Source: Pyrenula massariospora
Lineage: Eukaryota > Ascomycota > Eurotiomycetes > Pyrenulales > Pyrenulaceae
Assembly: GCA_021030905.1 (NCBI GenBank)
Contig: JAGFMI010000017.1
Coordinates: 558,001-622,000 of the forward strand
Direction of reading: 5' to 3'
DNA length: 64,000 bases
Position 1 is the first letter of the stretch, and each line of letters starts with the position of its first letter. The notes under the pieces were generated by a model. The model was given only the letters and a program-made list of their open reading frames with translations, ran no database searches and was not told the DNA's origin. Position numbers and translations under genes: made by a program. This document shows, piece by piece, positions 13,723-31,676 of the stretch.

Positions 13723-14807
13723 TCATTGTCTTTTCCTTATCCACTTCCAGATTTTCAAATATTGTTGTCACCTAACTATGGTGAAAATTTCTCTAGAGAA
13801 ACCGCGACGTCTAGGGTATCCGGTGGAATATCGGCCAGTAACCGCGACTTAATAGGCCGCAGGGACAACGCACATCCCAGCCAATGGTCTTTTGGCGCGG
13901 GCAAGCTGGTAGTGACACATCGGCGAGTGACGGTGACGAGGGGCTTGAGGGAGGTGAGTCGAGGTTGAAAGCGGTCAAGGGACGGCGAGCGCCAGCGTGA
14001 GCTCGATGTACGTTTTTCGCCGCCAAGATGTCGACCACGGATTTCTATGCTAGCTCTTGGAAATAGAAGAGGTTCAAAGGTTTCAAGGAATAGTTGAACA
14101 GCATTTATAAATGTCTCTTCAGCGCATGCTCAAGCAAGTTATGAATTATTGAACTATCCAAGCCTAACTCTCCCTGTCACCAATAGTCTCATCAGCGCTA
14201 CAAAAGATAGCAACAATGCAAGAAAGATATTCAAGTGCTAGGATTTAGGCAATACGGTTTATCATAAGCTTAACTAGCCGACGGCCTCAGCAAATGCAGG
14301 AGAATGTAATGCCTTCAGACAACCGCGGTCTACCGGCTCAGCCCTGTCACCAAAGGCTTCAGGGCGAGCGCTGGAAGATCGTTTCACCGGTCCTGGATCG
14401 CTCTCAGATCTGTTGACGGGATGATTGACATTATGGTGATGCAAATGGCTCCTTAGGGCGTCAATACGTTCAGCGATCAACCGAAACACGCCTCTGGAGG
14501 TGGAACAGGATTGCTGAACACAGGTCTGTTGATGAAGAAAAAAACTGTAGAGGCGAGGGAAGATTTTTGGCTTTCAGATGCTTGGTGGCTGCCAAGACCA
14601 CCTTTACTAGCCGCTCTAGCTGTAGCGCAGTTTGCGGAGCGCGCTCCTCTAAGGCGACTAGGATTATTTTGATACGCATTTAAACTTAACAAGAGACCCA
14701 TCAGAGATATTGCTTGACTACCCACGTCCAAGCATGTTGCTTTTCCCTCTCACTAATTGAGAAAGAGTCAAGGTATTAGATCAGACCCCTCTGGGCATCC
14801 ATTCACA
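13723..14807. other. Spacer upstream of SNU66
   Basis: About 1.1 kb with only short ORFs in conflicting frames. It includes the promoter side of the splicing-factor gene. Nothing further was recognised. Confidence 0.5.
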
Positions 14808-24380: not shown

Positions 24381-24755
24381 GCGGAAATTTGCGGCGTGTA
24401 TATAGTGAATAACAGCTGCTTTTAGGCGAAAGGCATTAGCATATGGGCGGTATGAGTTGTAAAAGCAAGTTTTCCCACCGGTTTAGTTGATATATGACAT
24501 CTTACAGAAGGCCCCAACGGCGCTACCAACTTTTTGTAGATCGCCAGGACGGTAGCGTCATGTTCTTAATCTGCTTGTCGCATGTTTTTACAAACTGACC
24601 TTGCAGAAAGGCGGTTGGTCGGCTCTTATCAATAAAAAGTTCCAGGAGCTAGCGTCACCTTTGAAGGGTCCCAAGCTAGCCATAGCACCCCTCGCCTCCT
24701 CAAAGTCATAAGGCGATGTTCCAAGGGAAAGCTGGGCTGGGAGATACCAAAAATT
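24381..24755. other. KGD1 3' flank
   Basis: This 375-bp stretch after the KGD1 stop shows no coding or RNA signal before the tRNA gene. Confidence 0.5.
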
Positions 24756-24892
24756 TGATCGCGTTCAGGATCGAACTGAAGACCTCCTGTGTATTCATGG
24801 AGTGTTAAACAGGTGTGATACTGGCGAGGAAGATGAGCGGGAGGATCAACGATGAGGAGCGAGGGGGCATACACCAACTACACCACGCGACC
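24756..24892 (-). tRNA. tRNA-Val (anticodon AAC) with two insertions
   Basis: On the minus strand the acceptor GGTCGCG pairs with CGCGATC (one G-U) and is followed by A73. Box A (TGGTGTAGTTGG) and box B (AGTTCGATCCT) are intact. The anticodon arm is CCTGT-TTAACA-(11-nt intron)-C-ACAGG, the intron being at the canonical 37/38 position. In addition, 52 nt (24821-24872) sit in the D-loop between the GGT and the TA that precedes the 3' D-stem (TCAC). Without that segment the D-arm reads GTGTAGTTGGTTATCAC, a perfect tRNA-Val consensus. All stems are otherwise well paired, which argues for a working gene rather than a relic. Confidence 0.82.
24821..24872 (-). other. GT...AG insertion in the tRNA-Val D-loop
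   Basis: These 52 nt start GTATGC and end CGCCAG, with a pyrimidine-rich interior and a GTTGATC that could serve as a branch site. Size and ends match mRNA introns in this window (46-60 nt, GT/AG). The segment lies just 3' of box A, so the internal promoter is not split. Splicing is an inference. Confidence 0.6.
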
Positions 24893-26606: not shown

Positions 26607-27985
26607 ATGAAGTTCTCTTCTCTCTTTAGCTTCGGCCTCTTGGCATACTCTGCTGTTGCAGCACCAACTCCCACTGAGGACGAGAAGCGTGCAAATATTG
26701 TCAAGAGGGCCACTATTACTGATGTGCCAACAACTGTGAGTATCTGGGTAGTGTCTGAAACGACAGCCAACTCACGGCAGTAGGGATACGCCACTCAGAA
26801 TGGCGGGACCACTGGAGGCAAGGGCGGCTCAGTCACGACCGTCTCGACGTATGCACAGTTTACGGCAGCTGCAGCTGCAGACGACACTGCCCGAGTCATT
26901 GTCGTCTCAGGAACCATCACCCAGACCGCAGACCAAGTCAGAGTGGGTGCTAACAAGAGTATCATCGGCAAGAACTCTTCTGCTAGTAAGTTGCACTTAG
27001 AACCGCTTACAATCACACTGCTAACGATTTCCCAGAACTCGTCGGGTTTGGTCTCTTGATCAAGAAGAAGAACGTGATTGTTCGGAACTTGACGATCCAG
27101 AAAGGTACGTCAACTGTTTTACACTCTCCTTGATTTCAATCATGAACGAACTCCTACTTCACGTGACCTCCTTGGCACTATCTCATCCTAACATACATTG
27201 GCAATTTGATCTCTACTGACGCCCTTTAGTTCTTGCTGACAACGGCGATGCAATTGGTCTGCAAACGAATGCAGCTACCAACATTTGGATTGACCACGTT
27301 GACCTTTCAAGTGACATGTCTCATGACAAAGACTACTATGATGGTCTTCTTGACATCACACACGCAGCGGTAATAGCTCTTTATTCTGGTTACCTTAGCA
27401 ATAGCTGATGACTCGATTACAGGACTTCGTAACCGTCAGCAATACCAAATTCCATGACCACTTCAAGGTCAGCCTTGTAGGTCATAGGTAAGATCAGCAT
27501 TCTCCAACCTCAAGCTTCAGATGCTGATATCCGACCCAGTGACAGCAATGCTGCCGAGGATACTGGCCACCTGCGTGTGACGTACGCTAATAACTATTTC
27601 CTCAATGTCAATTCCCGTGGTCCATCTCTCCGCTTTGGTACTGGGCATGTTTTCAACACCTACTGTGAGTATCTCACCATCCAAACCAGCGCATTCGCCA
27701 ATATTGGAATTTAACTAATAATCTATAGTTGAGAATATGTCCGACGCCATCAACACCCGCGACAATGCCCAGATGCTTGTCGAGTCCAACTATTTCACAG
27801 GTGTTGACAAGGGCCTCTACACAGTAGACACCGGCAAAGCTGTCCAACGTGACAACCAATTCAATGGCGCCGAGGCAGATGCTCCTACCGGCTCACTTAC
27901 CTCGGTTCCCTATAGCTATAGCTTACTTGGTAGCGGCAATCTGGCCAGCGTGAGGTCGAGCGCTGGTGCGACCTTGAGCTTCTAG
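26607..27985 (+). CDS. Secreted pectate lyase, polysaccharide lyase family 1
   Basis: Seven exons (26607-26735, 26784-26986, 27037-27104, 27230-27369, 27423-27487, 27540-27664, 27729-27985) encode 328 residues. The signal peptide is MKFSSLFSFGLLAYSAVAA, followed by a KR-containing pro-segment (DEKRANIVKR), a possible kexin-type cleavage site. The right-handed beta-helix core shows IWIDHVDLSSD, the Ca-binding Asp-rich stretch, DFVTVSNTKFHDHFKVSLVG, and the RxPxxR catalytic motif in NSRGPSLRFG (about residue 235). The enzyme cleaves polygalacturonate by beta-elimination outside the cell, in plant cell-wall breakdown. The introns (48, 50, 125, 53, 52 and 64 nt) each have good GT/AG ends and keep frame. 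Length is normal for the family. Confidence 0.95.
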
Positions 27986-31289: not shown

Positions 31290-31509
31290 AAGTTAATTAG
31301 AAAATTCATTGTTTAACTTTTTACTATAATTATTATTTTAGATTATCAAGTTTTCGTTTGTGACAGGCGAATTTAGTATTTATTTTTTTTAATATAGTCA
31401 AGCATATAAGCTACTAAGATACTTCTTTATATATTAAATTTGTATATAATGTGGACATAGATGAAAAATACTTATAGAAGTAATCTATAAAAATTAGGAT
31501 TTGTTTTAA
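31290..31509. other. AT-rich block beside tRNA-Pro
   Basis: Strongly A/T-rich sequence leads into the tRNA gene, and the AT-rich introns of that tRNA continue the composition. No coding signal is seen. Confidence 0.55.
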
Positions 31510-31676
31510 GGGTCTTACCGCGACTCGAACGCGGGGCCTCTCGCAATTTTTGTTACTTAGAATTCGCAAATTTTTGTAACTTAGAGTTCACCCTAAGCGA
31601 GAATCACTAGCACAAAATCAGCTTATATTTATTAATAATTGGATTAAATAACATACTACCACTAGACCATAAGACC
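31510..31676 (-). tRNA. tRNA-Pro (anticodon AGG) with two insertions
   Basis: On the minus strand the acceptor GGTCTTA pairs perfectly with TAAGACC, with C73. The T-arm CCGCG-TTCGAGT-CGCGG is perfect and includes box B. The anticodon arm is CTCGC-TTAGGG-(45 nt)-T-GCGAG, the 45-nt AT-rich intron being at canonical 37/38. A second segment of 50 nt (31607-31656) interrupts the D-loop right before the 3' D-stem. With it removed the sequence reads AGTGGTATGATTCTCGC, the standard tRNA-Pro D-arm. At 167 nt this is far longer than a normal tRNA gene. Fully paired stems suggest the gene is maintained. Confidence 0.82.
31607..31656 (-). other. GT...AG insertion in the tRNA-Pro D-loop
   Basis: These 50 nt start GTATGT and end GTGCTAG, with an AAGCTGATT branch-like element 13-20 nt before the end. 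It looks exactly like a short fungal spliceosomal intron. Apart from the ends it has no similarity to the insertion in tRNA-Val, which lies at the same D-loop place to within 2 nt. Confidence 0.62.

Follow-up and report, generated by a model that had tools for sequence, protein, structure and literature searches.

Why does a proline tRNA gene of Pyrenula massariospora carry, in addition to an ordinary anticodon-loop intron, a second interruption with intron-like ends inside its D-loop, and by what machinery might that sequence be removed? The gene, tRNA-Pro(AGG), lies on the minus strand at 31510–31676 of the 64-kb stretch of DNA that was analyzed (hereafter, the window), and its 72 nt of exon sequence, delimited by hand, are split by two introns into segments at 31676–31657, 31606–31591, and 31545–31510. 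All pairs of the acceptor stem (7/7) and T-stem (5/5, with G-U pairs counted) are intact. The ordinary intron of 45 nt, located by ARAGORN and from the sequence, occupies the anticodon loop (31546–31590, minus strand). The initial annotation had placed a 50-nt insert with the ends GTATGT...CTAG at exactly 31607–31656 in tRNA-Pro(AGG) and had claimed that its removal restores the standard Pro D-arm. The insert was confirmed at these positions in an otherwise intact gene: once it was removed, ARAGORN identified tRNA-Pro(agg) and placed a 45-nt intron at 36-37 (ARAGORN count), and a single cut position within 12 nt was valid. From its sequence we read this minus-strand insert as a spliceosomal-type intron, with GTATGT as the 5′ splice site, GCTGAT as a branch site 11 nt before the 3′ end, and a terminal CTAG. 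A T5 run located 16 nt downstream of the gene (31489–31493, minus strand) is a candidate Pol III terminator. The anticodon-loop intron contains a tandem duplication with imperfect copies (GAACTCTAAGTTACAAAAATTTGC / GAATTCTAAGTAACAAAAATTGC), in which the first bases of exon 3 (TGCGA) recur and could act as a decoy for the second splice site.

A second tRNA gene, tRNA-Val(AAC) (24756–24892, minus strand), was found to be interrupted within 2 nt of the same D-loop site, as had also been claimed. Its 74 nt of exon sequence (24892–24873, 24820–24803, and 24791–24756; limits again set by hand) are likewise separated by two introns, and its stems are fully paired (acceptor 7/7, T-stem 5/5, G-U counted). 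The D-loop insert of 52 nt (24821–24872, minus strand) begins with GTATGC and ends with CCAG, and we read it, too, as a spliceosomal-type intron; its candidate branch site, GCTCAT at 13 nt before the 3′ end (alternatively GTTGAT, at 25 nt), is weaker than that of the Pro insert. By hand reading, the anticodon loop holds an ordinary 11-nt intron (24792–24802, minus strand). ARAGORN reported an intron of the same length at a shifted position in the insert-free gene and, because of this different placement, labeled the gene Ile(aat). We assigned the Val(AAC) isotype by hand, with the cut after position 37 giving a TTAACAC loop and the anticodon AAC. The readings of both the Val and Pro genes also draw on comparison with the yeast tRNA-Val and tRNA-Pro sequences. 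A T5 run only 2 nt downstream of the Val gene (24749–24753, minus strand) is again a candidate Pol III terminator.

The limits of the inserts are unique. In each gene, one cut position within 12 nt yields the spliced product, and at that position both inserts possess GT...AG ends, starting with GTATG and finishing with YAG. Provided that the spliced product represents the ancestral tRNA, boundaries that do not slide in either gene mean that target-site duplications are absent. In standard tRNA numbering, we take the insertion sites to be 21/22 for Pro and 20/20a for Val, two nucleotides apart, and the A box presumably lies upstream of both inserts so that promoter recognition could survive. 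BLAST comparison of the Pro and Val inserts revealed similarity limited to the first five bases, GTATG (both end in AG), in agreement with the earlier observation that the two share no sequence beyond their ends; the GC content was 22% for Pro versus 62% for Val. A search of the 64-kb window for a second copy of either insert found none, with the best other match extending over 12 nt (E 0.13). That the inserts differ in sequence and in insertion site, by two nucleotides, indicates that each arose independently. Together with the unique boundaries and the intact acceptor and T stems, these differences support the part of the initial annotation that proposed recurrent insertion rather than chance damage.

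The tRNA content of the window was established by a pairing scan that required a T-arm and an acceptor stem, no more than ∼320 nt apart, and an A-box-like 5′ end. Three tRNA genes were found, all on the minus strand: Arg(CCG) (10099–10013), Val(AAC) (24892–24756), and Pro(AGG) (31676–31510), with a D-loop insert present in two of the three. A wider scan returned seven candidates, comprising the same three genes and four sequences that were discarded by eye as not tRNA. The Arg gene (minus strand), identified by Rfam (RF00005, 42.2 bits) and by ARAGORN, carries a 15-nt anticodon intron but lacks a D-loop insert, thus providing an internal comparison. It alone matched the Rfam tRNA model; the Pro and Val loci remained unmatched by that model even when searched singly at a loose threshold. 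The loose search gave one and three weak snoRNA matches at the two loci, all below the cut-offs, and Rfam over 20000–42000 gave five other sub-threshold matches; all were taken as chance. When the insert was left in the Pro gene, ARAGORN reported a false tRNA-Arg(tct), or Ile(aat) under other settings. With introns allowed, the program missed the interrupted Val gene, and under bacterial settings it found zero tRNA genes in the window, the Arg gene being among those missed. The failure of the Rfam tRNA model and ARAGORN on both interrupted genes implies that such introns could have been overlooked in fungal genomes already published. With RNAfold, the insert-free sequences did not fold into a complete cloverleaf, and folding was left out of the evidence. 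AT-rich, TATA-like stretches ∼22–36 nt upstream of each of the three tRNA genes may be a weak indication that the genes are intact.

To compare the inserts with mRNA introns of the same fungus, we assembled a reference set of 14 introns from joined open frames and sequence reading, 10 of which are in five Pfam-checked proteins. The joined-frame search provided 22 candidates, of which seven were used unchanged, one was used with another 3′ end, one was the Val insert itself, and 13 were omitted; six further introns from sequence reading completed the set, and four of the 14 were picked by eye only. This set is small (10–14 introns) and was partly picked by splice motifs, so the derived matrices lean toward consensus. 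Nine of the 10 introns in checked genes lie inside a Pfam match, the exception being the first pectate lyase intron (26736–26783). Joining extended the match to the MoCoBD_2 profile in xanthine dehydrogenase from positions 2–185 to 2–283 (of 283) and that of the HET protein from positions 1–106 to 1–146 (of 146), raised the aminotransferase Pfam match from 172.6 to 226.9 bits, gained the full C-terminal domain of 2-oxoglutarate dehydrogenase, and resulted in a single Pfam match spanning five junctions of pectate lyase. The pectate lyase gene (26736–27728, plus strand) was read with six introns in ∼1 kb, including one of 125 nt. One intron of the class I/II aminotransferase gene (60199–60152, minus strand) has the unusual 5′ splice site GTATTC, with a Pfam match that spans the join. 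A codon-bias intron finder was dropped after yielding 0 candidates under strict settings and 77 under loose settings, many of them implausible by eye, and was replaced by the joined frames and reading.

Scoring matrices covering both splice sites (5′ and 3′) and the branch site were derived from the 10 mRNA introns, and the insert boundaries to which they were applied came from tRNA structure, not from the scoring. The Pro insert scored 20.0 and the Val insert 15.7, compared to 11.8–20.2 for the mRNA introns themselves in leave-one-out scoring. Among equal-length segments of both strands, with the 14 introns and the inserts excluded, 0 of 125,950 scored as high as the Pro insert and 1 of 125,946 as high as the Val insert. 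Composition-matched shuffling of either insert reached the score in 0 of 100,000 trials (for Pro and for Val), and shuffles with GT and AG fixed did so in 15 of 50,000 (Pro) and 48 of 50,000 (Val) trials. The reverse complements scored −3.5 (Pro) and −12.1 (Val). Earlier matrices made from all 14 introns gave scores of 21.5 for Pro and 16.7 for Val, corresponding to fractions of 7.8e-6 and 2.0e-5 of 255,760 segments, and with these matrices the Pro score was reached by 0.04% and the Val score by 0.55% of 7,149 GT...AG pairs spaced 45–60 nt apart. A loose splice-motif scan of the window listed both inserts, but amid dozens of other sites; hence, a match to the loose motif is not in itself unusual. 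The insert lengths of 50 and 52 nt fall in the 47–64 nt range of nine of the 10 mRNA introns, the tenth being 125 nt. GCTGAT, the branch site of the Pro insert, occurs in three of the 14 mRNA introns, and one of the 14 has ACTCAC, a near parallel for the weaker Val branch site. Both inserts exhibit sequence features of a U2-type intron, namely GT...AG at the junctions that restore the tRNA, splice and branch sites typical of the species (the branch site being weaker in Val), and a species-typical length.

On the basis of these sequences, the D-loop inserts are probably U2-type spliceosomal introns that inserted independently into two Pol III tRNA genes and would be removed by the spliceosome. 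Entry most likely would have occurred by reverse splicing of an intron into the structural RNA followed by reverse transcription, a route that would explain insertion without target-site duplication, and the point of insertion would be just downstream of the A-box promoter. We infer the following order of events for a functional gene: after transcription by Pol III, the pre-tRNA would lose its D-loop intron to the spliceosome, giving a normal D-arm, and the anticodon intron would be taken out by the tRNA endonuclease and ligase. Two features complicate this interpretation. The 5′ exons of the Pro and Val genes are short, amounting to only 20 nt plus the leader, which counts against spliceosomal removal. 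In addition, the joined-frame search found that the Val insert links two open frames, 59 and 63 codons long, which offers the alternative that it belongs, as an intron, to an overlapping transcript made by Pol II. It is an evenly balanced question, judged from these two genes, whether spliceosomal introns have colonized tRNA genes across the genome in this lineage, favoring the D-loop behind the A box, such that some tRNAs would need the spliceosome to process the D-arm in addition to the endonuclease and ligase that act on the anticodon arm.

A rather unlikely explanation, which nevertheless has several observations in its favor, is that both genes are dead, with spliceosomal-type or other sequence having landed in spare copies of multi-copy tRNA genes that no longer yield functional tRNA. 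In fungi, tRNA genes of both isotypes, Pro(AGG) and Val(AAC), usually exist in several copies, so the two genes described here could be dispensable. The Pro gene adjoins an AT-rich patch (20% GC in the 200 nt downstream) where decay is plausible, and its anticodon intron contains the duplication described above. The base composition of the Pro gene also provides evidence against its death, since the exons are 58% GC versus 20–24% for the insert, the anticodon intron, and the downstream 200 nt (the upstream 200 nt are 51% GC), which is the pattern expected if exons are kept while introns drift. The Val gene lacks an exon/intron contrast that would indicate selection, with 51% GC in the exons, 62% in the insert, and 42% and 48% in the flanks. 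In both genes, however, the acceptor and T-stem pairs are intact and the anticodon intron has been kept. Furthermore, insertions in dead genes need not resemble introns, yet both of these inserts do.

We regard it as highly improbable that the inserts are ectopic tRNA introns of the kind found in Cyanidioschyzon merolae and archaea, which are cut by the tRNA splicing endonuclease. Introns of the D-arm do occur in a eukaryote, as excerpts of one report describe for C. merolae tRNA-Ile(UAU) (PMC9602550), and certain eukaryotic enzymes act at non-canonical positions, according to the relevant part of another (PMC4090602). Such cleavage would leave the mRNA-type splice and branch sites unexplained. 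Counts of pairs in the central helix of a bulge-helix-bulge motif at the D-loop junctions (2/4 for Pro and 1/4 for Val) had low discrimination, given that the canonical introns had 1/4 (Pro), 1/4 (Val), and 3/4 (Arg). The inserts are situated in the D-loop rather than at 37/38, the canonical position of eukaryotic tRNA introns; one ordinary 37/38 intron is present in each gene, and the D-loop inserts differ from it in both position and sequence type. The likeness to C. merolae, in which an extra D-arm intron and an anticodon-loop intron are described in one nuclear tRNA gene, is limited by position, as that D-arm intron is at 12/13 and the inserts described here are in the 3′ half of the D-loop (excerpts of PMC9602550). 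The D-arm introns of C. merolae and archaea are endonuclease substrates (part of PMC4090602), and the excerpted account of the C. merolae intron makes no mention of a GT-AG consensus. The archaeal and red-algal comparison offered in the initial annotation fits less well, as the inserts match mRNA introns at both splice sites (5′ and 3′), at the branch site, and in length; judging from these signals, it should be replaced by a comparison to ectopic spliceosomal introns. There is also very little chance that a transposable or introner-like element targeting tRNA genes was responsible: Dada transposons target tRNA and snRNA genes (passages of PMC3706591) and two insertions at nearly one site suggest targeting, but the 6–7 bp target-site duplications that Dada elements produce, or any others, are absent from both genes, no second insert copy is present in the 64-kb window, and the inserts are alike only in GTATG.

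Spliceosomal introns are generally associated with transcripts of Pol II, the rare exceptions being those in U6, U2, and rRNA. The U2 snRNA gene of Rhodotorula hasegawae reportedly has an mRNA-type intron, and Bhattacharya et al. in 2000 are said to have described spliceosomal introns in ascomycete rDNA. If the D-loop inserts are indeed spliceosomal introns, tRNA genes would constitute a further non-mRNA host class, a new link would make translation reliant on the spliceosome, and intron gain would be cleanly recorded in these genes, since tRNA conservation pins the insertion site to the base. The resemblance to the fungal snRNA genes (U6 and U2) consists of an mRNA-type intron within a short structural RNA; unlike those cases, in which the host is a spliceosomal RNA, the host here is a tRNA, whose gene has its promoter inside the transcribed region and also contains a second intron that is handled by another enzyme. 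The U6 RNA of S. pombe is a Pol III transcript from which the spliceosome removes an mRNA-type intron (excerpts of PMC8917221). Lichen rDNA contains spliceosomal introns, and yeast splices a spliceosomal intron out of Pol I rRNA, according to the available portion of one study (PMC8527467). The ectopic rDNA introns of lichen-forming and other ascomycetes resemble the inserts, as we read them, in being spliceosomal introns located outside mRNA genes (the same portion of PMC8527467), but their host is a Pol I rRNA and that of the inserts a Pol III tRNA. A spliceosomal intron in a tRNA gene was not found among the literature matches listed, which were mostly open-access papers; a direct phrase search led to the lichen rDNA study.

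Sequence patterns of the interrupted genes were also compared to other contigs. The pattern of the Pro gene with its insert had 0 matches in viral and prokaryote contigs, a result that is uninformative since the uninterrupted Pro control pattern also had 0 in both, and a looser Pro pattern had 0 in viral contigs. The Val pattern matched four viral contigs, all of which were dropped, as none was a tRNA by eye. Elsewhere, the window contains HET and NACHT-type genes, which, with the sRNA family Afu_309 described next, point to a filamentous ascomycete. Rfam additionally detected a full-length match (96.4 bits) to Afu_309, an Aspergillus fumigatus sRNA family, at 14241–14544 on the minus strand, and this match is located just upstream of a gene of the SART-1 family (splicing factor) on the opposite strand.
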